Positions 1-19,899 of a stretch of 21,900 nucleotides of DNA are shown piece after piece (the stretch's first letter is position 1; the number at the start of each line of letters is the position of its first letter). The notes below the pieces were generated by a model. That model was not told the origin of the DNA and ran no database searches. It saw only the letters and a list, made by a program, of their open reading frames with translations. Location: IMG/VR virus record IMGVR_UViG_3300037189_021178, positions 1-21,900 of that record; one strand, 5' to 3'. The DNA is from a virus. The translations under genes and the position numbers were made by a program.

Positions 1-3000
1 CTTACAAAGCAAGCAAATAAAGAAGAGTATGAAAAAGCAACTGCTGCAGGTTATCCAAGTTGGATGGGATATGCATTAGGTGGAAGAGTTAATGGATATG
101 CAGAAGGTTTAGGAAAACAAGGAAAGTCTCTTACAACAATATTTGGAAGAATGAATCCTCCACACGCAGGTCATGGAATACTTCTTGATGCTGCAAGTGC
201 TTGGGCTCAGTCTACTGGATCAGACTTTAAGTTTGATTTAGATTCTAAAGAAGGAGACCCAAAAAATCCTTTGTCTTTGAATGAAAAGTATTCATTGTTT
301 AAGATGATGTTCCCACAATATGCAGCAAACTTACAACCACCAAGTTCTGGAACAAAAATTACAGACAAGTTACAAGGTTGGGTAAACAATGGATATACTT
401 CTGCAGACATATTCTTGGGTGAAGATCAAGCAGGTAAGTTTAAGAATTTCTTACCAAGAAGTGCAGAAAAACTTGGATTAAAAGCAACTATTCATAGTGT
501 AGCTAGACCAGAAGGTGCTATGTCAGCAACTGCACTTCGTGCTGCAATCGAAGCAAAGGACTTACAATCAATTATGTCATTTATTCCAGGAAATATTGCT
601 CCAGAACAACGTGATGCTATTGCTAAAAAACTTGCTGGCATTTCTATTCCACAATCTAAGGAAAAAAGATTAAAAAGTGCTGCAGGGGGATATTTTGCAC
701 ATATTGTTCCAGGAACAAATGTTGGTCAAAATATTAATTTAAAATATCCTCTTGGGTTTGATGTTCCTAAAGAAATTAACGATAAGCTAAATAATGATGA
801 AGCCTTGGTAAGAAAAGAAACCCTTATGGAAAAGTTTTTTAATTCAGCAGGATCAACACAAACAATGAAACAAGCTTTTAGAGCTTTTTCAAAACAGCAC
901 CCAGAGTCTGATATTAAAGAAGGCTATGAAAATACCATAAAGCAGTCTATGCAAATAGGTCTTCAAGATGCTCCAGAAATGCTTAACGATAAAATTTTAT
1001 ATCGTGAGGCATTAGATGAAGATCCGATTGAAAAAGCATTTAATACTTTTAAGAGATATAAATATCTTGCTGGGTATAGAGCAAATGCTAGTATAAAAAT
1101 GCTTGAAGACGCTGGATTTACACAAGATGGAGATATATATACTGCTCCAGGTCCAGATAAAGATCTAAAGGTTAGAGCTTTTAGGACAGATAGCGGTAGG
1201 CTTAAGCTTGTACATCCAGAAACAGGAGAAAATATGTGGGGCTCTCCCTCACAATCGAAAACTACCAGATCTGTACCTGACAAGTATCCTTTACTTAATT
1301 ACTTTATGAATCAAAAACAAATGGGTGGTCGCATAAATGGATATGCAACTGAAACAACTACTTGGGCAAAGAAAGCAGCAGCACCTAAAGCATATGCAGG
1401 TGTTTTGCAAGGCATTCCTAATTGGGCTACTAGAGATGCTGAATATCAAGCAATAGTTTCTGCATTACAAAATGCAGGTATTCCTGAATCAGATAGACTT
1501 GCATCATTCTATATTCAAGATGTATTGGCACATATTAATCCGTCCACAACAAATGCTAATGGAATATATGAAAAGGTATGGGCTGCAGCTAATTTGATGA
1601 AAGACTCTCAAGTTTACAATGTATTCCTTGAGACTTTAAATAGCAGAAAAGATATTGGTGGGTTGTTAAATCCTTCTACCGTCTCAAGAGTTGTTGCTGC
1701 ATCTGGACTAGCAATGCCAGTAGTTCAAGCAGAACTAACAAAGATTGCAGATGGTGTTCATCCAAATACCGCAAACGGTGCAAAGGTTATGATGACGCTT
1801 GCAAGAATGTTCCCATCAAGAACTTCTCCAGGAATGCCAATCGCTGTTGCAGCAGGTATGCAAGCAAGACTACAAGGTAACTTCTATGACACTCTTGGAC
1901 AAAGAGCATTGCCTTCAAACCTTCCAAACATCACTGTAAGGGCATATGATCCAAAGGGTGGCGGAGCACCAACATCAAGCACACAAGGCTCTAGAACAGC
2001 CTCTAGTGGCATTGTAATGCCATCTGGAGCTATTAGACCAGGAATGGTAATGCCAAACATTCAAAGTATCTCATCTGCAGCAGGTGGATTTAGAGGAACT
2101 GGAACGGGTGCAACTGTCAAGGTTGATGCTATGGGTAATGTCTTGTCAAGTGGTATTGATGATATGGTTGCAAATACTGTAACAGGTCAGCCTATTGCGG
2201 TATCTAGTAAGGAGCTTCTTGCTATTGCTCCTGGCGGTGGTATTGCAGGTGTAACATCTCCAGGAGATGAAGCTAGAGGTAATATTGTTCATCCTATGGG
2301 AACAGCATTAATGCGTGGTGGAAAATTTCAAAGACTTAGAGGTTATGCAAATACAACCGTTACAAGTGGTCTTGATTTTGTAGAGGGTCAATCAGCAGCA
2401 ACCAAGCAACAAGAAACACAACCTACATTTCAAGGCAATATTGCTGCTGGAAGAATGGATAAGTTTGCAGCAAGTATTGGGTTCTTAACAAGTGGAGCAT
2501 ATACTTTACAAACTGCCTTCCAACAATTTACTGCAACTGCTCAAGATGGTGCAGATAAGTTTACAAAAATGGCAGCAGCAACTACTCTTGCAATTACATC
2601 TATTCAAGGTGTTGCACAAATGCTTGTTGATAATGAAAAAGTGCAAGCAATGAAAGATAAAGCAGCATCTATGCAAGCCCCAGGATCTAGTAAAATGTCT
2701 AGCGGTATGGGTAAATTGCTTGGAGGTGGTGCAAAGTTTCTTGGATTCTTGGGTGGTCCTATGGGAATGATTGCTACATCTGCTGCTATTGCTGGTGTTA
2801 ATAAGGGTATTGCAATGTATCAAGAAGCGGTACAAAAAGCAAAAGCAGCAGGTCAAGCAATGTTTAAAGACCCTATCGAAGGTGCAAAACTTCTTGGAAT
2901 TACTTTGAAAGATACTTCTGCTATTGCACAAACATATTCAAAAATTGCAACAAGTCTTGGAATGAAAGGTACTGGTAAAGGTGCTTACGATAAAACATAT

Positions 3001-5490
3001 GCTGAAGTTGTTAAAAAAGACTATGGTGATTTAATTGATAGCATGAAGTTTGTACTTAATCAAGAAGAAAAAAGGAATAAACTATTACTTACATATATTA
3101 ATCTTACTCAAAAAGGATTTAGTAAAGAAGATGCAAAAGCATATGTGCAAGAAATTGCTCGTCAATCTGGTGCTATGTCAGCATTTAATAGTATAAATGT
3201 AGATAGTCTTAAAACTACTACTGATATTGCAGATCAAACAGTTGCATCTACAAAAGCTCTTGTGTCAAGTATAGGAAAAGTTGATCCAAATCTAATTGGT
3301 AAGTATATTAATAAAAAAACTGGTACTATTTATGACACTGAAGAAGCAATGAAAGCTGCATTCAGCCAACAATCAGCAATGACTAAGATTACTTCAACAT
3401 TTAATCCTGCTAATCTTAATGATTATGGAGATTTTACACAAATTAATGAAGATACTCCAAAAGAATTAACTGCTGGAATTTTGGGAACTATGAGCTCTTT
3501 AGGTTTAGATGAAAAACAATTAGGAGAAGCTATTGCAGGTTCACTTAAGACTGCATATTCAATAGCAGCTACCGACCCATCAGCAGCAAATCAAGCAGGT
3601 GCAATGATTATTGAAAATATTGCTAATGGAACACAGGCACAACAAGATGCTGCAAATGGTGCAATCCTTGAAATGTTAAAAGAAGCAGGAGCAAGCAATG
3701 CCGATTTAGGATACAGTTTTGTTCAAGGCGGTGGCTTAACTAAGATGGCAAAAGATGCAGAAAATAAGTTTGCAGGAATGGGTCCAAAGTTTGCAAACGC
3801 TATTACTTCTGCTATTCAGTCTGGTAATATTAATTTAGTAAATGATTTAATTAAAAACTCAGGAGGAGATCCTTCTCCAGAAGCTATGCAAACATTTGTA
3901 AACCAACTAGCAAAAATACAAGCATTAGCAAAAATTGATCTAGAAGTTGATATTCAACTAGAACAAACAAAGAAGCAACTTGAACTAATAAAAACAGAAC
4001 TTGGAAAAACCTTTGATATTTTGATTGCAGCAAAGCAAGCAGAAGTAGAAATTGAAAATAAGCGTCACGAACAAGCAATGAAAAATCTTGACAATGAAGC
4101 AAAACGCCTAAATGATAAAAAAGATATTCTTCAGAGAAATACCGATTACTATATCAAAGAACTTGAAAGAGAAAAGCAAGCAGAAGACTATTATGCCAAT
4201 CAAAGAAAGACTGGATTATCTGGTCTTAAGGCAATTTCTGGTGGAGATGTCTTTGGATTTATTGGTGCTCAGATGGATGCAGCATCAAGTGCCGATCAGT
4301 TTGGTAGAGATCGTTCAATGCAAGCAATACAAGAAACTTCAGATGCTGCTCAAAGGAAACTTGATGAAGATCTAAGAGCTATTGATAATAGAAGAGAAGC
4401 AGAGGCTGCAAGACACGAAGCAGAACTTGCAAATATTGAAGCAGAGATAGAATTTTTAAATAAGAAAAGAGCTGTATCGGTTGGTGCTGCAGAAAAAGCA
4501 ATATCAAAAATTGAAAAAGTTGTAGCTATGAGCCCATCCGATCCTGGATATGCAGCAGCAGTTAGAGAAGCAATGAGTCTTGCAACTAATGCTGGAATGC
4601 AAGCGTCTCAAGTTTTGCAAAATGCAGACACATCCTCTATGACAGATCAAGAACGCAAAGATTTTAATAAAGTAAAAGAAGACCTTGGTTTGGCTATTGA
4701 AACATTTAATTCTGATAAAGAAACAGCACTTGGGGTTCTTGGACAAGACGTTGAGGCTATTACAAAAAATATTGCAGACTCTCTTGGAGCAGCAGGAGAT
4801 GTTTTAGGTGGGGTTGTTGACTCTTTAAATCAGCCAGTTAAGCCAGGATCTGCTATAGCAAAAGTTGCAGAATTGGCTGGAATTAATGTTGGAACTGCTC
4901 AGGGAGGAGTTACTGGTGGAGCAACAGCAGGAAACACTACAAAGCCTGTAAGTAGTTCAGTTTCAGCACCAACAAAGTCAAATTATTTTGTTAATACTGG
5001 AGCAAGTGGTAGAGCTATTGCACCAAACTTTGCAAGTGGCGGTATGTTATCTGGTCCAGGAACTGGCACATCTGACTCAATTCCAATTATGGCATCAAAT
5101 GGTGAATATATAATGAATGCATCTGCTGTAAAAGCCTATGGTCCAAAGTTTATGGATAAGATTAATGCTAAGAAGTTTGCTAGTGGTGGATTTATTGGAT
5201 CAATGCCAACAATGTCTATTGCACCAGGAATGGCTGCTGGAGGAAGTGTTCCTATGCCAAGCATATCTGCACCACCAACTCCAAGTTATAATATTCCTTC
5301 TGCAGGTGGAGGAATGGCTCCAGCCCCTATTGCACAAATGGCTCGTGGAGGACAGATAACTTCAAACTCTTCAAACATAAACTCTAGTCCAGTTATGAAC
5401 TTTAATGGTGCAGGTATGGATATGGTTATGCATCACGTTAATAAAGCTGTTGGTGGTAGAATTAGTAGTAATTCTAGGAGAATTGGTTAA
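1..5490 (+). CDS. Tail tape-measure protein with embedded nucleotidylyltransferase domain (5' partial)
   Basis: This gene sets tail length and probably occupies the tail lumen until DNA ejection. The frame is open from base 1 with no start codon before the ATG at 64, so the true start lies outside the window and 64 is only the first internal Met (numbering below counts it as residue 1). Seen in order: an HxGH nucleotidylyltransferase domain (about 22-195); an unrecognised segment (196-418); an Ala/Gly-rich segment (430-750); a helical tape-measure body with a hydrophobic Gly-rich stretch at 885-912; long charged coiled coils at about 1283-1382 and 1433-1475; and a Gly-rich C-terminus. That C-terminus contains GPGTGTSDSIP and NGEYIMN (about 1664-1685), a block common at the end of siphophage tape-measure proteins. 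Short GG-centred repeats occur throughout. Its size and its position before the distal-tail and hub genes support the call. The fused enzyme domain is unusual. Confidence 0.9.
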   Translation, partial: LTKQANKEEYEKATAAGYPSWMGYALGGRVNGYAEGLGKQGKSLTTIFGRMNPPHAGHGILLDAASAWAQSTGSDFKFDLDSKEGDPKNPLSLNEKYSLFKMMFPQYAANLQPPSSGTKITDKLQGWVNNGYTSADIFLGEDQAGKFKNFLPRSAEKLGLKATIHSVARPEGAMSATALRAAIEAKDLQSIMSFIPGNIAPEQRDAIAKKLAGISIPQSKEKRLKSAAGGYFAHIVPGTNVGQNINLKYPLGFDVPKEINDKLNNDEALVRKETLMEKFFNSAGSTQTMKQAFRAFSKQHPESDIKEGYENTIKQSMQIGLQDAPEMLNDKILYREALDEDPIEKAFNTFKRYKYLAGYRANASIKMLEDAGFTQDGDIYTAPGPDKDLKVRAFRTDSGRLKLVHPETGENMWGSPSQSKTTRSVPDKYPLLNYFMNQKQMGGRINGYATETTTWAKKAAAPKAYAGVLQGIPNWATRDAEYQAIVSALQNAGIPESDRLASFYIQDVLAHINPSTTNANGIYEKVWAAANLMKDSQVYNVFLETLNSRKDIGGLLNPSTVSRVVAASGLAMPVVQAELTKIADGVHPNTANGAKVMMTLARMFPSRTSPGMPIAVAAGMQARLQGNFYDTLGQRALPSNLPNITVRAYDPKGGGAPTSSTQGSRTASSGIVMPSGAIRPGMVMPNIQSISSAAGGFRGTGTGATVKVDAMGNVLSSGIDDMVANTVTGQPIAVSSKELLAIAPGGGIAGVTSPGDEARGNIVHPMGTALMRGGKFQRLRGYANTTVTSGLDFVEGQSAATKQQETQPTFQGNIAAGRMDKFAASIGFLTSGAYTLQTAFQQFTATAQDGADKFTKMAAATTLAITSIQGVAQMLVDNEKVQAMKDKAASMQAPGSSKMSSGMGKLLGGGAKFLGFLGGPMGMIATSAAIAGVNKGIAMYQEAVQKAKAAGQAMFKDPIEGAKLLGITLKDTSAIAQTYSKIATSLGMKGTGKGAYDKTYAEVVKKDYGDLIDSMKFVLNQEEKRNKLLLTYINLTQKGFSKEDAKAYVQEIARQSGAMSAFNSINVDSLKTTTDIADQTVASTKALVSSIGKVDPNLIGKYINKKTGTIYDTEEAMKAAFSQQSAMTKITSTFNPANLNDYGDFTQINEDTPKELTAGILGTMSSLGLDEKQLGEAIAGSLKTAYSIAATDPSAANQAGAMIIENIANGTQAQQDAANGAILEMLKEAGASNADLGYSFVQGGGLTKMAKDAENKFAGMGPKFANAITSAIQSGNINLVNDLIKNSGGDPSPEAMQTFVNQLAKIQALAKIDLEVDIQLEQTKKQLELIKTELGKTFDILIAAKQAEVEIENKRHEQAMKNLDNEAKRLNDKKDILQRNTDYYIKELEREKQAEDYYANQRKTGLSGLKAISGGDVFGFIGAQMDAASSADQFGRDRSMQAIQETSDAAQRKLDEDLRAIDNRREAEAARHEAELANIEAEIEFLNKKRAVSVGAAEKAISKIEKVVAMSPSDPGYAAAVREAMSLATNAGMQASQVLQNADTSSMTDQERKDFNKVKEDLGLAIETFNSDKETALGVLGQDVEAITKNIADSLGAAGDVLGGVVDSLNQPVKPGSAIAKVAELAGINVGTAQGGVTGGATAGNTTKPVSSSVSAPTKSNYFVNTGASGRAIAPNFASGGMLSGPGTGTSDSIPIMASNGEYIMNASAVKAYGPKFMDKINAKKFASGGFIGSMPTMSIAPGMAAGGSVPMPSISAPPTPSYNIPSAGGGMAPAPIAQMARGGQITSNSSNINSSPVMNFNGAGMDMVMHHVNKAVGGRISSNSRRIG
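127..648 (+). other. Nucleotidylyltransferase (phage cytidylyltransferase-like, HIGH superfamily) domain inside the tape-measure protein
   Basis: The domain has FGRMNPPHAGH (27-37 counted from the Met at 64), the nucleotide-binding HxGH loop of the superfamily. It also has KNPLSLNEK followed by MMFP (67-84), GEDQAGKF (119-126), and SATALRAAI (154-162), which matches the C-terminal S/T-x-x-x-R phosphate-binding motif with Arg159. This order of motifs matches the free-standing 'cytidylyltransferase-like' proteins found in many aquatic T4-like and related phages, recalled from general knowledge of that family. The key His34, His37 and Arg159 are present, so activity is plausible. The substrate is unknown. 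Confidence 0.82.
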
Positions 5491-12229: not shown

Positions 12230-13707
12230 TGCAAAAACTATCTAAACTTGACCTAGAGCCAAATGAAATCTATAATGTTTCATTTAATATTAAACAAGGA
12301 AATAAGAATATAGATACTCTTAGGTTTTTTCAAACACAGGTTCCAAAACTTTTTAATATAAAGCCTTCAAACTTTTCTACATTTTCTCAAATAAATGAAT
12401 CAGCAACTTCTGTTAAATCAGAGGTAACTAATTCTGGAATTATTCCAGGTGGACCTTCTCATGCACCTAATCAAGGCGTTAAAGTAAAATCAGTAGAATG
12501 GAAATTTAACCAATTTCCAACAAGTCGTGAAGATGGAGTAACATCATATGAACCAGAAGGAGTTGAATATACTTTTACAATAACTTTTAATGGGGCTGTA
12601 GAATTTACTTCGTATTATTTATCTGGATTTAAAGGATTTTTGGATTTTTTAAACTACAGAACAGATTATCAAGTAGTAGATAAGAACACTTTAAGATTAA
12701 AGTTAAGTCTTGCAGATATTGATCCTCTTGCAGAAACAATATATAGTGTTAAGCGTACTACAACTCCTTTATATGTTAATATAGTAGATGCTATTCCTGT
12801 AGGTAGCACTACCGTATACCTTCCTGAAGATACAAAATTAACTAATATTATTGCTGGAAAATCAAATATATATGCGTTAGGTGCAAAAATAACTTACCAA
12901 GGTGTAAATTATGGAAGTTCGGTTGTATGGGATAATGCACCGATTATAGATGTTGGAAAATTTACCACTGAAAATGGTCGTAGATTGATTTATCTTACTA
13001 TGGGGAAAACAGCACTTTCTAAAAAAGAAGCAAATACTCAAGTTGCAATATATGGTACATTTGAAGGTACTTCATTTACTGGAGATTTTTATAAATATCT
13101 TAAAAAAGGGGGAGACCAGACATCCAAAGCGAAGAATGCAACAGTTGCATCTGCAAATATTATTTGGCAAACATCGACTCGTTATGATGCTACAAAAGCA
13201 TCAACTAATTATACTTTTAAAAAATCTTCATCTATAAGTTCTTCTCTTATAAATCCAAATATTATAGAAAAACTTATTTGGGAAGATGAGGTAAGAGATT
13301 ATATATATTTCATAATTTCAGATACCGATACAGGTGGAGATAATAAAAAATATTTTTTTGGAACATACGGAGACTCCCTTGCATTTCCAACGCTTGCAAC
13401 AGAAAATACATCATTAAAAGGCACAGAAACTTTTAAAAAAGGATCTCCACCTTCGGTTACAGATAATCCAAAAGTTATTAGTAGTAGCTTAAAAAGATTT
13501 CCAACTTCAACTGGAAAAGTAAAATATTATGAGGCAAGCAAACTGCAAGTAAATAATCAAACTGTTCCAGAGCTTTTAAGAAAAGTTGAAGTTCAGTTTG
13601 CTATTGCAAGGTATACAAAAAAAGATGGTGTCTGGAGTGCTTATTGGCTTCCAAACAGGAACGCAAGCGAAAATGAAATACTTTCTCAAGTAGAGGTGCT
13701 TGACTAA
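12229..13707 (+). CDS. Virion structural protein of unknown function (tail-tip region)
   Basis: The gene encodes 492 residues, beta-rich throughout, with no membrane segment, signal peptide or catalytic motif that I recognise. The opening (LDLEPNEIYNVSFNIKQGNKN) and a strand-rich block at about 85-165 (VKSVEWKFNQFP, VEYTFTITFNGAVEFTSYYL) look like an immunoglobulin- or fibronectin-type beta sandwich, judged only by strand pattern. The C-terminus (LLRKVEVQFAIARYTKKDGVWSAYWLPNR) looks like a packed beta domain. It starts at a TAATG overlap with the preceding fibre-like gene and ends at a TAATG overlap with the large fibre gene, so it is translated with the tail-tip block. A baseplate or fibre-attachment protein is the likeliest role. 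Confidence 0.62.
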   Translation: MQKLSKLDLEPNEIYNVSFNIKQGNKNIDTLRFFQTQVPKLFNIKPSNFSTFSQINESATSVKSEVTNSGIIPGGPSHAPNQGVKVKSVEWKFNQFPTSREDGVTSYEPEGVEYTFTITFNGAVEFTSYYLSGFKGFLDFLNYRTDYQVVDKNTLRLKLSLADIDPLAETIYSVKRTTTPLYVNIVDAIPVGSTTVYLPEDTKLTNIIAGKSNIYALGAKITYQGVNYGSSVVWDNAPIIDVGKFTTENGRRLIYLTMGKTALSKKEANTQVAIYGTFEGTSFTGDFYKYLKKGGDQTSKAKNATVASANIIWQTSTRYDATKASTNYTFKKSSSISSSLINPNIIEKLIWEDEVRDYIYFIISDTDTGGDNKKYFFGTYGDSLAFPTLATENTSLKGTETFKKGSPPSVTDNPKVISSSLKRFPTSTGKVKYYEASKLQVNNQTVPELLRKVEVQFAIARYTKKDGVWSAYWLPNRNASENEILSQVEVLD

Positions 13708-16700
13708 TGGCAGGTGTAGGAAAAAATAATCAATCCTCAAGCGTAAGAGGAATAGAATCTTCAGATGGTTCAATATACTTACTTTCAGATAGATTAGCGT
13801 CTTTAAACTTTAATGGCTTTATTCCAAGAACCAGTACTGAAGTTTATGCATCTGACTTAACTGTTGGTCAAACAATTTTTAATGCAAATCCAATATCACA
13901 AGATGATTCGTTTTTTATTACAAAAATTGATGCCTTTCCAGTTGTAGTAGACGGCGTTGATGAACAAAAATACTTTTTGTACTTTCTTGGAGATGAAAAC
14001 CTAGAAGAGCCATACACCTATGGTGCAGAAAATGAAGATGGATCATTTTCACAAGACCATTTATTTAGTTCTTATAGGGATGACATTTCAAGTCTTTCTC
14101 TTGGAACTGATGGCTGGATGATAACAAATCAAGGTAATGCTGTTTTTTCAAATGTTTTTGTAAGAGGAACAATAGAAGCCACATCTGGAAAAATTGATGG
14201 AATTTTAAATGTGGGTGAAGATGTAAATGGAGAACCACTAGTAACTATTGGAAAAAATCTATTTGAATCAACCTCTTTTGAAGGTAATTCTTCAGAACAT
14301 AGCGGTATATTTTTAGACAGACATAATTATTTTATGGGCTATGATCAGATAAAATCTATTCCTATTTTATCTGTTGTAGCACAAAATTCAACTAATAATG
14401 TTATCTTAAGAAAAGCAGAATTTACTTTAGCAAATCACACTCTTTCTGTTGCAGATAAAGTTTCTATTTCTGGATTTACAGAAGATAAGTTTTTAGAACT
14501 TGAAGATACGTTTTCTATAGCAGAAGTTACACCAAATACATTTACCGTTTATTATAAAAAAGATATCGCAGGTACAACAAATCCAATAACTGTTGACTTA
14601 AAAGCTGATTCTTTTGGTCTAGATGATATATATACGATTACACAACTTAATTTAGTTAATGTTGTTTCAACAGAAGATACATCAATTTTGCATATATATG
14701 TAGCTAAAGAATATATTGGAGAGTTTGAAGAAGGTTTTCCAATAACAGTAACTTCTTTTACTAGTCCAGTATTTGAACAAAGCTCACGTTACTCAGTAGA
14801 CTCTATAGTTGAAACTCCAGGAGAAGATGATCCAGATTATTTAGTAACAACTTCTTTAAGAGTTACGGCTGGAACATATACAACAGGTCTTGGACAAATT
14901 GACTCTTCTTTAAAAAACTATAAATTTAAAGTTGGTAATGACACTAATTCAATGAGCTATAACTCATTTACTGGAGCCTTAACCGTAACTGGAACCATAA
15001 ATGCTGATTCTGGAAACTTTACAAATAACATTACAGTTGGTAAGCAAAACATTTCTTATTCTGTATATAATAAAAAATTATTGGGCAATGTTGCAACTCT
15101 TGCAACAAGTACTTTTCATAATTTTGTTATTGGTGATGAAGTTGTTGTTTCTGGGGTAGATGCTACATTTAATGGAACATATACAATTACAGGCGTTCCA
15201 ACATTAGAGTCATTTACATATGCTAAAACTGCAAGCAATGTTGCTTCTACCGCAGTTTCTCCTCTTGGAACAGTTTCAATAGGAGAGCCTGAAAACGGAA
15301 ACATTTTTGTTGGATATGGTGCTAATCAAATAACAATATCTGGAACTGAATTAAGCACAACATCTTCTATTTTTTCAGGAGCAGGTAGCTTTAAAGATCC
15401 ATTTACTCCATTTTATATGGATGCCTCTGGAAGGTTTAGTATATCAGATCAGTTATATTTTGAAAGTGGTGTTCTTACTGCTCCTGGAATTGCAGCAACT
15501 TCTATAGCTGTTGGAACAGCTCCAAATAGAATAATTATATCTCCTACCGCCGTTTATGGTAGTGCAGGTTTATATATAGAAAATACTGAAGACTTTATAA
15601 ATGCTACTAATGGAAACTTTAGTCTTGGTGATGGTCGTGTAACTTGGGATACCGCATCTTTAACCCTAACTGTTGATGGAATTTTAAAAGGATTTGTTAA
15701 TGACACAACACCAATAACAGCAAATCCAGGCAACACTATGGGATTTGGATTATTTTCAACTGGATCAGTTGGTGTGGGTCTAAAAATTAATGATAACAAT
15801 TATTGGTTTGCAGATGCAGGTAATCCAAGAATTAGAGTAGGATCAGCAAATAATTATTTATCCTATCAATCAAGTTCTGACTTATTAGAAGTTACAGGAA
15901 CAATAAATGCAAATGCTGGAAGTTTTGGAACTTTTCTTATAGATACTTCTGGAGTTTCTGGAACTAATGATCCAGCCTTATGGGGAGCAAATGGTAAAGA
16001 TGTTATATCTTTAGACACAACAGACTCTGGACTTACAGGTTTCCCAGGAATCTCTATAGATACTTATGATAGAACTTTGCCAAATCCAATTTGGCAATCA
16101 ACTGTTGCTTTGAATGAGTTTGGACTTTGGTTTCAAAATAGAAATACAACTACTGCATCATATATTGAAAGTGATATATCTGGTTTTGGAATAGCTGTTA
16201 GTTTAGGAGAGGGTGCGGAAGACTATCCATTAATTTCGGCTTCTTATTCTAATCCAATAGTTATTAAATCTGCAACTATTAGTGGTGTAGGAAGTGAATT
16301 TGTTTATTCCGTAATAAATAAACAACTTACAAGCAATATTGCAACACTTACTACAGACGGTGAACACGCACTTGCTCCTGGATCAACTATAGTAGTATCT
16401 GGAGTTGATTCTATATTTAATGGAAGATATACTGTTATTGATACTCCAACTTTAAACACTTTCACATATGCTAAAACTGAAACCAATGTTGTTTCTACTG
16501 TAGTTAGTCCAGCTGGAAAAGCAGCAGCTAGTTACCGTACTACAGCAACCCTTTCGTTTGGAGTCCATACTGTTACAGCAGTTAATGATTTGAATCCAGA
16601 TTCTAATTCTGCTACATATACAGCAAATGGTCATACCTTTAATGTTGGAGATACTGTAATAATTAGTGGTGCTTCTATTGCAGGATTTAATGGAACATTT

Positions 16701-18356
16701 ACAATTACAGCAGTAACAACAAATACTTTTAGAGTTGCAAATACTACCACTGGAAATCCTTCATTTTCAACTGGATCAGTAAGTCTTTCAAGTCTTAAGT
16801 TATTGGCAACAGATCAAATTATCACTGCAACTGGACTTGTAACTCCACTTACAATTACAGCGATTGACGATGCAAATCCAGGTTCTGGATTTGTTACATA
16901 CACAGCAACTGGACATACCTTTTTCCCTGGAGACCTAGTTACAATTACTGGTGCATCGGTTGCTGGATTTAATGGTACGTTTGGTGTCTATGATGTTACT
17001 GCAAATACTTTTACTATTCAAAGCTCAACAACTGGAGCAACTTCAACTGCATCAGTGTTTTCACCAGTTCGTGTTGATTCAGTAGCTGCTACAAATGTAA
17101 CTATTTATTCTGATAACTTAATTAATGCAGGAGCTTTATCTAATATTAGCACAACATATGCTACATTTACGCATAGTGGTGATCGTACTTTTACTCTGGG
17201 TCAACAGTTTAACGTTTCTGGTGTAAGTGGTGGAAACTATAATAATTTTTCTACTATTGTTGCCATAGACAGCGATAATTCTTTTACTGTTGGTGCAAGT
17301 AATAATAATTTTACAAGCCCATCTGGATCTGGTGGTACTGTTAATTATGAGTCAAAAGGAAACTTTGTAATAAAAAGCATTAATCAAAGTGAAGAATTTT
17401 TAAGTATATCTCCTAGATTGGAACCAAGTAATACTTTATTGACTAGAGATACATTTTCGGTGTTTAATGATATATTTAAAATTAATTCAAGAGGCTCTGA
17501 ATTTCCTTCAGGATCCATAACAACTGACGTATCTAACTTTGCTATAGTTAATTCAAATGGTAACGGTTTATGGATTGATCCTAGTGATGTTTATGGTGTT
17601 TATCTTACACCAGCTTATAATGGTGTAAGACAGCTTGCCTCACAGCTATATTTTGATGGACCAAGTAATAGATGGCGTTTTGAGCCACCTGTTTATATGA
17701 ATAGTACTTTAAGAGTAGTTGGCACTTCAACGTTAACTGGAAATGTTGCATTTGGTGGCGGTGTTGATTTTGGAGCATTATCTATTGCTTCAGCAGGATC
17801 AGGAACAATTTCTTCAACAGGTGGAATTGCGTTATCAGCAACAAATGGTGGAGTTACTTTATCAGCAACAAATGGTGGAGTTACTTTATCAGCAACAAAT
17901 GATATAACATTATCAGCAACCGATGATGTAATATTAAATCCAATTAGTGAGTTAAAGGGAAATGTAAATGTTTATTCTAGTGCGAATCTTACTGGAAGAA
18001 CCTTACTTATTACTTCTAGTCCATATGTTATTGGAACATCTGCATCTACTAGAAGAGTTAAGCAACAAATATCAGATTTTCAGTGGGATGTGGATGCATT
18101 ACTCAACTTATCTCCAAAAGTATTTAAGTATAATAAAAGTGTTGAGGAGTTTGGAGAAAGTGCTCCGTGGGTTCATGGTCTTATTGCTGAAGAAATAGGT
18201 GATTTAGGTCTAGAAGGATTGATTCAAAGAGATGAAGAAGGAATTCCTGACTATGTAGAGTATGATAAAATTGGAGTTGCACTTATTTCTGTAGTAAAAA
18301 ATCAACAATTATTAATAGAAGACTTAGAAAATAGACTTGCAGCATTAGAATCATAA
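13707..18356 (+). CDS. Large tail fibre / tailspike with repeated beta modules and C-terminal S74 chaperone
   Basis: This 1549-residue, Ser/Thr/Asn-rich, beta-rich fibre probably trimerises and binds the host surface. Seen: three short units of the form V-x-GTI-x-A-x-SG (about nt 14160, 14985 and 15895), usual in phage tail proteins of the gpJ/Gp58 type; an FYMDASGRFSISDQLYF unit near nt 15411-15461; at least five ~60-residue modules with a GD-x-V-x-(I/V)SG ... FNGTYTIT ... TFTY signature (main copies at residues about 457-526, 872-941, 951-1028, 1039-1122 and 1147-1215); a 27-bp tandem repeat; then a C-terminal S74/intramolecular chaperone domain of about 100 residues ending in a coiled coil (LLIEDLENRLAALES). 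AGAGG at 13692-13696 precedes the ATG, which overlaps the upstream stop as TAATG. The fibre call is firm. The receptor is unknown. Confidence 0.88.
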   Translation: MAGVGKNNQSSSVRGIESSDGSIYLLSDRLASLNFNGFIPRTSTEVYASDLTVGQTIFNANPISQDDSFFITKIDAFPVVVDGVDEQKYFLYFLGDENLEEPYTYGAENEDGSFSQDHLFSSYRDDISSLSLGTDGWMITNQGNAVFSNVFVRGTIEATSGKIDGILNVGEDVNGEPLVTIGKNLFESTSFEGNSSEHSGIFLDRHNYFMGYDQIKSIPILSVVAQNSTNNVILRKAEFTLANHTLSVADKVSISGFTEDKFLELEDTFSIAEVTPNTFTVYYKKDIAGTTNPITVDLKADSFGLDDIYTITQLNLVNVVSTEDTSILHIYVAKEYIGEFEEGFPITVTSFTSPVFEQSSRYSVDSIVETPGEDDPDYLVTTSLRVTAGTYTTGLGQIDSSLKNYKFKVGNDTNSMSYNSFTGALTVTGTINADSGNFTNNITVGKQNISYSVYNKKLLGNVATLATSTFHNFVIGDEVVVSGVDATFNGTYTITGVPTLESFTYAKTASNVASTAVSPLGTVSIGEPENGNIFVGYGANQITISGTELSTTSSIFSGAGSFKDPFTPFYMDASGRFSISDQLYFESGVLTAPGIAATSIAVGTAPNRIIISPTAVYGSAGLYIENTEDFINATNGNFSLGDGRVTWDTASLTLTVDGILKGFVNDTTPITANPGNTMGFGLFSTGSVGVGLKINDNNYWFADAGNPRIRVGSANNYLSYQSSSDLLEVTGTINANAGSFGTFLIDTSGVSGTNDPALWGANGKDVISLDTTDSGLTGFPGISIDTYDRTLPNPIWQSTVALNEFGLWFQNRNTTTASYIESDISGFGIAVSLGEGAEDYPLISASYSNPIVIKSATISGVGSEFVYSVINKQLTSNIATLTTDGEHALAPGSTIVVSGVDSIFNGRYTVIDTPTLNTFTYAKTETNVVSTVVSPAGKAAASYRTTATLSFGVHTVTAVNDLNPDSNSATYTANGHTFNVGDTVIISGASIAGFNGTFTITAVTTNTFRVANTTTGNPSFSTGSVSLSSLKLLATDQIITATGLVTPLTITAIDDANPGSGFVTYTATGHTFFPGDLVTITGASVAGFNGTFGVYDVTANTFTIQSSTTGATSTASVFSPVRVDSVAATNVTIYSDNLINAGALSNISTTYATFTHSGDRTFTLGQQFNVSGVSGGNYNNFSTIVAIDSDNSFTVGASNNNFTSPSGSGGTVNYESKGNFVIKSINQSEEFLSISPRLEPSNTLLTRDTFSVFNDIFKINSRGSEFPSGSITTDVSNFAIVNSNGNGLWIDPSDVYGVYLTPAYNGVRQLASQLYFDGPSNRWRFEPPVYMNSTLRVVGTSTLTGNVAFGGGVDFGALSIASAGSGTISSTGGIALSATNGGVTLSATNGGVTLSATNDITLSATDDVILNPISELKGNVNVYSSANLTGRTLLITSSPYVIGTSASTRRVKQQISDFQWDVDALLNLSPKVFKYNKSVEEFGESAPWVHGLIAEEIGDLGLEGLIQRDEEGIPDYVEYDKIGVALISVVKNQQLLIEDLENRLAALES
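15055..15282 (+). repeat. Beta module, copy 1 of a close pair in the fibre
   Basis: The segment runs from YSVYNKKLLGNVATL through VVVSGVDATFNGTYTI to SFTYAKTASNVASTAVSPLG. It is the partner of the segment at 16306-16530, sharing both the leader (YSV-x-NK-x-L) and the tail (FTYAKT-x-x-NV-x-ST-x-VSP-x-G). This indicates an internal duplication of the whole unit. Confidence 0.8.
16306..16530 (+). repeat. Beta module, copy 2 of a close pair in the fibre
   Basis: The segment runs from YSVINKQLTSNIATL through IVVSGVDSIFNGRYTV to TFTYAKTETNVVSTVVSPAG. It matches the unit at 15055-15282 over its full length and is followed directly by two more distant modules (nt about 16557-16788 and 16820-17073). 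Confidence 0.8.
17832..17936 (+). repeat. Tandem repeat of 27 bp (two exact copies plus degenerate copies) in the fibre gene
   Basis: The unit encodes LSATNGGVT. Copies at 17832-17858 and 17859-17885 appear identical at DNA level; 17886-17909 (LSATNDIT) and 17910-17936 (LSATDDVIL) are diverged and the third is one codon shorter. Each turn would give one beta strand of a stacked or triple-helical fibre shaft just before the chaperone domain. Confidence 0.85.
18045..18353 (+). other. Intramolecular chaperone / peptidase S74 domain of the fibre
   Basis: The segment reads STRRVKQQISDFQWDVDALL, then LSPKVFKYN, VHGLIAEEIG, YVEYDKIGVALISVVKNQQ and a terminal coiled coil. That is the full order of the endosialidase-type C-terminal chaperone. 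Ser1447, Lys1452 and His1490 keep the spacings (5 and 43) that I recall for Ser911, Lys916 and His954 of the K1F endosialidase. Self-cleavage after Ser1447 would therefore release about 102 residues once the trimer has folded. The residue after the serine is Thr rather than the usual Asp. Confidence 0.87.
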
Positions 18357-19054: not shown

Positions 19055-19089
19055 TAATGTCATTTTTTGGCATAAACAAAAGGATTAAA

Positions 19090-19899
19090 ATGAAAAACGA
19101 TTTAAAGTGGATGCTATCTTCTGACCAGCAATTCCCTTACCAAGATGATAAGATGATTGAATTATGGTTTACTGTTATGAGATGGTTTAAGCCAGATGTT
19201 GTAGACTACTTGGGTGATACCGATGATCAGGCTTGCTATAGCAAGTACACAGAAGGACGTTCAGCAGAGTTTTTAAAGATGCATAAAGATAATGAGGGTA
19301 ATGCAATAGTACCTCTTATGAAGCATGAAGCAAAACTAGCAAGAGATTTTTATACAAAGACACGCAATGTAGCAAGAAAAGCACAGCTATTTTCAGCACT
19401 TGGAAATCACGATATCCGTGTATTTGACTATGTAGATGCAAAACTTCCAGACTATATTGAAGTAACTACACCAGAAACATTGTGGAACTTAGATAGTCTT
19501 GGTTATGATTATATTTATTACAATGAGCCTCCTGCACACCGCTTTGGAGACATTCACGTTCATCACGGAAATGCTATCTCACAAAATGCAGGTGAATCGG
19601 TTCGTAAAGATGTAGATAACTTTGGTGTATCTTTAATTCGTGGACACTCACATCGTGCAGGTGTGTACTTTAATACCTATGAACTTAGAAACGGTGGCAA
19701 AGGTGAAACCCTAAGAGGATATGAGCTTGGTCATATGTGTGATGAAAAGTCTAAAGGTATGATGTATACAAACAACCATAACTGGCAAAAGGCATTTGCT
19801 ATTGCACACATTGAAAATGGTGTATATCCACATATTCAGCTTGTTCACGTTTCTCCTGATTATTCTTGTGTAGTAGATGGCAAGCACTTTAAGGTTTAA
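19090..19899 (+). CDS. Calcineurin-like metallophosphoesterase
   Basis: The enzyme has 269 residues and hydrolyses phosphoesters with two metal ions. The family motifs appear in order: SSDQQ (Asp12, with Gln14 where most members have His), LGDTDD (Asp43), LGNHD (Asn106, His107), HVHHGN (His158/His159) and RGHSHR (His186, His188). The long insertion between motifs II and III is helical. The substrate is unknown: nucleic acid, nucleotide or protein are all possible, and the place at the head of the replication genes favours nucleic-acid processing. The ATG at 19090 is preferred because AAAGGA at 19079-19084 lies five bases upstream. An in-frame ATG at 19057 coincides with the predicted transcription start, so an 11-residue longer leaderless form is possible. 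Confidence 0.85.
   Translation: MKNDLKWMLSSDQQFPYQDDKMIELWFTVMRWFKPDVVDYLGDTDDQACYSKYTEGRSAEFLKMHKDNEGNAIVPLMKHEAKLARDFYTKTRNVARKAQLFSALGNHDIRVFDYVDAKLPDYIEVTTPETLWNLDSLGYDYIYYNEPPAHRFGDIHVHHGNAISQNAGESVRKDVDNFGVSLIRGHSHRAGVYFNTYELRNGGKGETLRGYELGHMCDEKSKGMMYTNNHNWQKAFAIAHIENGVYPHIQLVHVSPDYSCVVDGKHFKV

Follow-up and report, generated by a model that had tools for sequence, protein, structure and literature searches.

We find that an uncultivated phage encodes a nucleotidylyltransferase (NTase) domain of the HIGH superfamily in one reading frame with its tail tape-measure protein (TMP), and that in related phages this domain is exchanged for others at recurrent separators within the TMP. The domain is probably a cargo cassette of a modular TMP, which would make it a tail-delivered, polymorphic version of the 'polyvalent' effectors of phages. 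This interpretation draws its support from NTase profile and fold matches, invariant motifs, the dN/dS ratio, the TMP fusion itself, the exchange of cassettes, a kinase neighbour and the precedent of phage P23-45. The DNA analysed (the window) is a complete 21.9-kb viral record whose edge falls inside the TMP gene. All sequences are uncultivated contigs, and those designated L002, L003 and L004 come from differently numbered IMG records. The features of the window gene are collected in Table 1.

Table 1. Features of the TMP gene in the window (positions in nucleotides; aa, residues of the window protein unless stated otherwise).
Feature	Position	Strand	Remarks and evidence
TMP, C-terminal 1,829 aa	1..5490	+	Contig edge removes the 5′ part; ORF, PHROGs, complete relatives of 3,560-3,767 aa
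Linker ending the upstream kinase-like cassette	1..78	+	Kinase itself outside the window (L002 aa 1114-1414)
Cassette separator GGRVNGYA	79..102	+	L005 homology stops 21 nt after separator start
HIGH-superfamily NTase domain, aa 41-217	121..651	+	PHROGs, alignment, AlphaFold, fold match
GRMNPPHAGH, HxGH catalytic motif, aa 49-58	145..174	+	Invariant in alignment A1
KNPLS motif, aa 88-92	262..276	+	KNP invariant in alignment
GEDQAGKF, aa 140-147	418..441	+	GxD motif; Q where free-standing relatives have R
SATALR, aa 175-180	523..540	+	(S/T)xxxxR-type phosphate-binding motif; S and R invariant
Domain F ('FAHIVP')	685..1323	+	Swapped together with NTase; clustering, pairwise comparison
Cassette separator GGRINGYA	1324..1347	+	Separator analysis
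Domain G, largely helical, forming the constant right border of the cargo	1348..2334	+	Clustering, AlphaFold
TMP C-terminal ruler part	2335..5487	+	Second hydrophobic stretch (~2740-2800), coiled-coil-like stretch, GGMLSGPGTGTSDSIP motif; ORF, PHROGs, L003 hydrophobicity

The TMP frame runs off the record at its 5′ edge and holds no internal stop, and the TMP family phrog_3547 matches this same frame (PHROGs, E 2e-20, aa 1423-1776). The almost identical contig L002, with 5 differences over 10,690 nt, extends it 1,412 codons further upstream and is itself also cut. Complete TMPs are provided by L003 and L004 (3,560 and 3,767 aa, respectively), and in a region that lies outside the window these have, by sequence match, a TP901-type tail tape-measure core (TIGR01760 and PhageMin_Tail, E 1.7e-30 and 2.3e-27 in L003 and similar in L004). 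Within the family, TMP lengths range from 2,038 to 3,779 aa. A preliminary description of the window had proposed that a set of NTase motifs shares one open frame with a TMP, and this is borne out by the presence of all four motifs without an internal stop. Looking for the same fusion in further TMPs recovered NTase and TMP in one frame in L002, L003 and L004, with the NTase of L003 80% and that of L004 51% identical to the window copy; only three non-redundant TMPs carry the domain. The unbroken frame and the shared architecture of these contigs also exclude a frameshift or stop between the NTase and the TMP body. The NTase is not at the N-terminus of the TMP: the contig edge cuts the gene, and the domain lies in the middle of the L003 and L004 proteins (about aa 1,590-1,950).

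Judged by the TMP core, the nearest isolates are Streptomyces and Gordonia phages, and we therefore guess that the hosts are Actinobacteria. Streptomyces phage Sham, a cultivated relative, has a TMP of 2,104 aa whose core is 37% identical; this TMP aligns with the L003 protein in the core only and has none of the separators searched for. Neither the TMP core nor the kinase of cassette D (described below) found a relative when used to search 84,980 species genomes. Elsewhere in the window, a metallophosphoesterase (19057-19899; phrog_221, E 5.5e-58) is encoded downstream of the tail genes, and a 1,549-aa tail-fibre-like frame (13707-18356) has several phrog_9998 stretches and matches phrog_1786, 'minor head protein', at its C-terminal end.

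Several lines of comparison identify the NTase domain. The N-terminal 230 aa of the window protein match phrog_3041 and phrog_395, both named 'cytidyltransferase' (E 6.2e-23 and 4.3e-17, respectively). The nucleotidylyltransferase profile match anticipated in the preliminary description was thus obtained with PHROGs, and also with Pfam CTP_transf_like for 11 of 13 aligned relatives (best 1.2e-7), but not for the window protein itself, with which Pfam and NCBIfam gave nothing significant. An AlphaFold model built from window aa 34-778 with 17 relatives agrees with the proposed fold: it predicts a Rossmann-like alpha/beta core with pLDDT mostly 80-95 for the NTase, and model part 8-184 matches PPAT/CoaD (Z 13.2), NadD-like (12.9) and NadM (12.5) structures over ~150 residues with an rmsd of 2.9-3.2. 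Taken with the HxGH and S..R motifs, the predicted core makes this a HIGH-superfamily NTase.

When a profile that includes cyanophage relatives was compared with solved structures, the matches were UPF0348 (7.5e-5), NadD (0.012), PPAT (0.042) and the NMNAT MJ0541 (0.045); RibF is also listed, and no CTP enzyme is. Because both profile and fold matches go to adenylyltransferases, sequence and model place the family on the adenylyltransferase side, and 'cytidyl' is a label only. A specific cytidylyltransferase finds no support beyond that family label, and CTP_transf_like is a generic Pfam name. The best profile match among solved structures is PDB 3gmi (MJ0951, UPF0348). The UPF0348 family includes tRNA-modifying relatives, so the acceptor of the NTase may be an RNA.

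Across all 13 aligned sequences, RMNPPHAGH, KNP, GxD and the S and R of SATALR are invariant, with the last motif reading SATALR, SASALR or SATQLR in the TMP copies. Among these copies the motif residues remain invariant down to 51% identity, and dN/dS is ~0.30 between the two closest (L002 and L003). The conservation of HxGH and S..R, together with this ratio in the closest pair, argues for the predicted NTase activity. The earlier statement that catalytic residues are kept holds for HxGH and S..R in all three non-redundant TMP copies, but not for the Arg after GxD. This residue is present in all aligned free-standing relatives and is Gln in the three TMP copies, a replacement that may signify a changed acceptor or weaker catalysis.

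Free-standing members of the same NTase family occur in cyanophages and Caulobacter phage Cr30 (phrog_3041/phrog_395; 24-34% identity). They have the same motifs and an intact GxDR, but are encoded by separate genes of 268-432 aa or form part of multi-domain proteins other than TMPs. In five free-standing relatives (L015, L016, L017, L020 and L022), the NTase is followed in the same frame by a GGPGSGKD P-loop-like stretch, an arrangement that resembles an NTase-kinase fusion. In Synechococcus phage S-SM2 (SSM2_161) and phage P-RSM1 (CPPG_00128), the NTase gene stands among large hypothetical genes between the gp41 primase-helicase and gp61 primase genes, and the stretches inspected have no annotated tail gene.

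In the TMPs, the NTase belongs to a cargo region that spans ~1,500 aa and is flanked by the TP901 core and the C-terminal ruler part. This region holds up to seven internal modules per TMP, with cargo domains of ~200-350 aa each set between GGR(I/V/M)xGYA separators (variants include GGRIQSHA). Clustering yields nine cargo architectures: A(ART-like)-B-C(kinase-like)-D(kinase)-NTase-F-G in L002 and the window, A-B-ART2-ART3-NTase-F-G in L003, X-Y-D-NTase-F-G in L004, A-D-Z-G in L005 (incomplete), A-B-ART2-ART3-F31-G in L031, A-C-ART2-F-G in L032, A-B-ART2-ART3-W-G in L034/L035, A-ART2-F31-G in L038/L039 and C-ART2-F31-G in L040. The NTase is present in three of the nine and always precedes domain F, and F-related domains are found without the NTase in L031, L032, L038 and L040. 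Domain G is probably part of the TMP proper. A 133-aa insertion in this domain, with a hydrophobic stretch and a Cys/His-rich motif, is present in L031 (aa 2226-2360) and in L034/L035 and is absent from the window, L002 and L003. A distant set of TMPs (L046-L069) has kinase D at about 40-50% identity. Near aa 718 in this set, pairs with 48-88% identical cores often lose homology right after VPGSGxGDKIPAMLEPGEF(I/V)VN, as if this site were an insertion hotspot.

Direct pairwise comparisons carry the argument that cassettes are exchanged. TMPs whose flanking DNA is 91-96% identical hold different modules, and the breakpoints lie at separators. For example, the DNA of L003 and L034 is 96% identical for the 5,275 nt that lead to the separator preceding the NTase, at which point L034 has an unrelated 206-aa domain opposite the NTase and F of L003 (~420 aa), and 96% identity resumes thereafter. 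The same whole NTase-F replacement, with two other replacement domains, distinguishes L003 from L031 and L002 from L005, the latter two parting 21 nt after the separator start. On these alignments, cassettes are replaced by recombination at the separators, and closely related phages therefore carry different cassette sets. A break statistic carries less of the argument: in 11 pairs, 42 of 67 homology breaks fall within 12 aa of a separator (9% expected), but the pairs share sequences, such that the P-value of 3e-27 treats them as more independent than they are, and separators coincide with domain borders as well.

Within one gene, the 24-nt separator cores are ~70% identical as DNA, with flanks at ~35%, which is the random level. 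Because identical separator residues are often encoded by different codons, the separator appears to be conserved as protein, whether as a linker, a processing site or both. Separators that serve purely as DNA-level recombination repeats were rejected on the same grounds, given that protein constraint must be at least part of the reason for cores of this identity with differing codons.

The clearest of the neighbouring cassettes is D, which was modelled well (model 862-1135, pLDDT about 80). Its fold matches are CtkA (Z 11.7), MavQ (11.2), PI4KII (10-11), and LepB and HipA/HipT (about 9-9.7), and kinase-type K, E, D, N and D residues are invariant in five sequences. Foldseek alone also ranked CtkA first, but with an E of 0.03. 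Since profile searches of the PDB with the kinase and ART alignments found nothing significant, the identity of D was settled by fold: the model, with its K, E, catalytic D..N and metal-binding D, is that of a HipA/PI4K-like kinase. Cassette C has a kinase-like motif order as in D (GNADTHPGN, LDN) and aligns weakly to it. The cassettes A, ART2 and ART3 keep an R67, S111, E218 pattern in 10 of 10 sequences, and from this pattern we guess, at the level of motifs, that they are ADP-ribosyltransferase (ART)-like. Comparisons of these cassettes with the PDB, Pfam and T4 ModA/ModB profiles, the last being thin, gave no match. AlphaFold models of cassettes A, B and C are of low confidence because few relatives are known, and domain B looks GNAT-like by eye only, which we do not claim as an assignment. 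No Pfam family scored above the cut-off for the cassettes. Kinase D, ART3 and domain F had no match in 50,697 phage records, and thus no isolate carrying any of them was found. Several disparate catalytic-type domains therefore appear to reside in one polypeptide, with the NTase and a kinase recognised by fold and a second kinase-like and an ART-like domain by motif.

Given these neighbours, a special case of the cargo-cassette interpretation deserves mention. As an NMNAT/NadD-like adenylyltransferase, the NTase would restore or redirect NAD-type cofactors in the infected cell, either countering an NAD-depleting defence or feeding the ART-like cassettes present in the same proteins. The matches to NadD, NadM, NMNAT MJ0541 and PPAT are compatible with this, and phages are known to carry HIGH NTases of the NadM/NadR kind (PMC9503650). 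However, PPAT and the UPF0348 protein score equally well. Few TMP copies per virion would make a poor metabolic enzyme, and the NTase is also found in L004, whose neighbouring cassettes have a weak ART assignment. We consider so specific a role unlikely.

A different view is that neither the NTase nor its neighbouring domains are active and that they serve as fillers or spacers, tuning the length, packing or unfolding of the TMP, their motifs having been kept only by recent origin. TMPs act as rulers, cargo changes TMP length across the range given above, and one active-site Arg is altered in the TMP copies. However, recent origin fits poorly with motif residues that remain invariant between such divergent copies and with the dN/dS value of the closest pair. 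Other cassettes also retain catalytic-type residues, and it would be unexpected for fillers to be enzymes so consistently. Structural co-option of this kind therefore seems quite unlikely.

If the domains are cargo, we can envisage how they might be delivered. The TMP would combine constant ends, namely the TP901-type core and the C-terminal ruler part, with a variable middle of cassettes, and by analogy with other TMPs it would be packed in the tail tube together with its cargo. In other phages, as has been established or proposed, the TMP occupies the tail tube and passes into the envelope on ejection (PMC10770324). A folded domain is not expected to pass the tail tube, and storage in an unfolded or extended form would therefore be needed; from the same analogy, extended cargo would be ejected ahead of the DNA. 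In L003 the cargo is flanked by hydrophobic stretches at about aa 542-571 and 2637-2657, and in a short TMP (L048) the same two stretches are only about 570 aa apart. Lying between them, the cargo might be placed at or across the membrane, fold there or beyond, and become active during the earliest minutes of infection. A host molecule would then receive an NMP (probably AMP) from the NTase; this acceptor might be a nucleotide or NAD-type cofactor or a macromolecule. The earlier proposal of an injected effector gains some indirect backing from the finding that the NTase is one of several interchangeable cassettes, kinase-like and ART-like ones among them, in a single TMP family. Domain exchange is by itself no proof of action on the host.

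The position of the cargo between two hydrophobic stretches could also suggest that its site of action is the cell envelope, or the producing cell while virions are assembled, rather than the cytoplasm of the newly infected host. Wall-degrading domains are found in many TMPs, and the P23-45 TMP has a metallopeptidase domain. However, both HIGH NTases and kinases depend on NTPs, a cytoplasmic resource, and no peptidase or lytic domain was matched in the TMPs scanned, which leaves this alternative distinctly improbable. Although the contig edge cuts the window gene, the chance that an assembly artefact or chimaera joined a free-standing phage NTase to a TMP is negligible, and this possibility, like a local frameshift, was rejected on finding the same architecture in L002, L003 and L004, divergent copies included.

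The closest precedent for the proposed cargo cassette is the TMP-fused RNA polymerase of Thermus phage P23-45 (gp96), which is active in vitro and present in virions (PMC10770324). Both cases involve a complete enzyme inside a TMP polypeptide, and that of gp96 is thought to act as DNA enters. However, gp96 is a 5,002-aa TMP with a single two-barrel RNA polymerase, placed N-terminally. The NTase is of another enzyme type and lies internally, and the TMPs described here have several small, exchangeable enzymes of modifying type between core and ruler part, with repeated separators. Polyvalent proteins, described in phages and conjugative elements (Iyer et al. 2017, PMC5512222), unite ART, kinase, GNAT and Pol-beta NTase domains and are believed to accompany the DNA into the cell. 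They resemble the present TMPs in having many disparate domains per polypeptide, in modularity and in predicted entry with DNA. In contrast, the carrier here is the tape measure, and the word 'tape' is absent from that report; the NTase is of HIGH rather than Pol-beta type, and the kinase shares a class with theirs but not the family that was tested. The carriers described in follow-up work are of head type, with ARTs and Nudix domains fused to MuF, portal or other head proteins (PMC9503650).

Two bacterial systems offer further parallels. Sle1-type effectors of actinobacterial contractile injection systems are TMP-like and have interchangeable functional domains (PMC13277306). As we envisage for the present phages, a TMP-related protein with an interchangeable functional domain is loaded in a tail-like particle. 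However, Sle1 belongs to a bacterial device and has one C-terminal functional domain, whereas the phage TMPs described here have up to seven internal modules. Polymorphic toxin systems (PMC3482391) likewise join a constant delivery part to domains exchanged by recombination, but these are bacterial C-terminal tips with immunity genes rather than internal cassettes of a phage structural protein. An unsystematic look here recognised no immunity gene.

More broadly, we see about an even chance that the TMPs of this uncultivated phage group, probably one that infects Actinobacteria, serve as polymorphic carriers of effectors. Up to seven domains, several of them enzymes of modifying type, would then be housed in the tail instead of the head, exchanged at GGRxxGYA separators (maybe processing sites) and fired in ahead of the DNA as a pre-transcriptional arsenal for counter-defence or takeover. 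In the open-access literature searched, we found no report in which a TMP carries a series of such interchangeable enzymes. The finding also raises the puzzle of how a ruler protein tolerates cargo of varying length, and whether tail length follows. If our interpretation is correct, a ruler protein would deliver exchangeable host-modifying enzymes before phage genes are transcribed, and the polyvalent-effector idea would extend from heads and plasmids to siphovirus-type tails. It would also link phage TMPs with the tape-measure-like effectors of contractile injection systems, and would add new kinase and NTase families whose targets may be defence or takeover factors. Phage tails would, if this is true, be programmable enzyme injectors.
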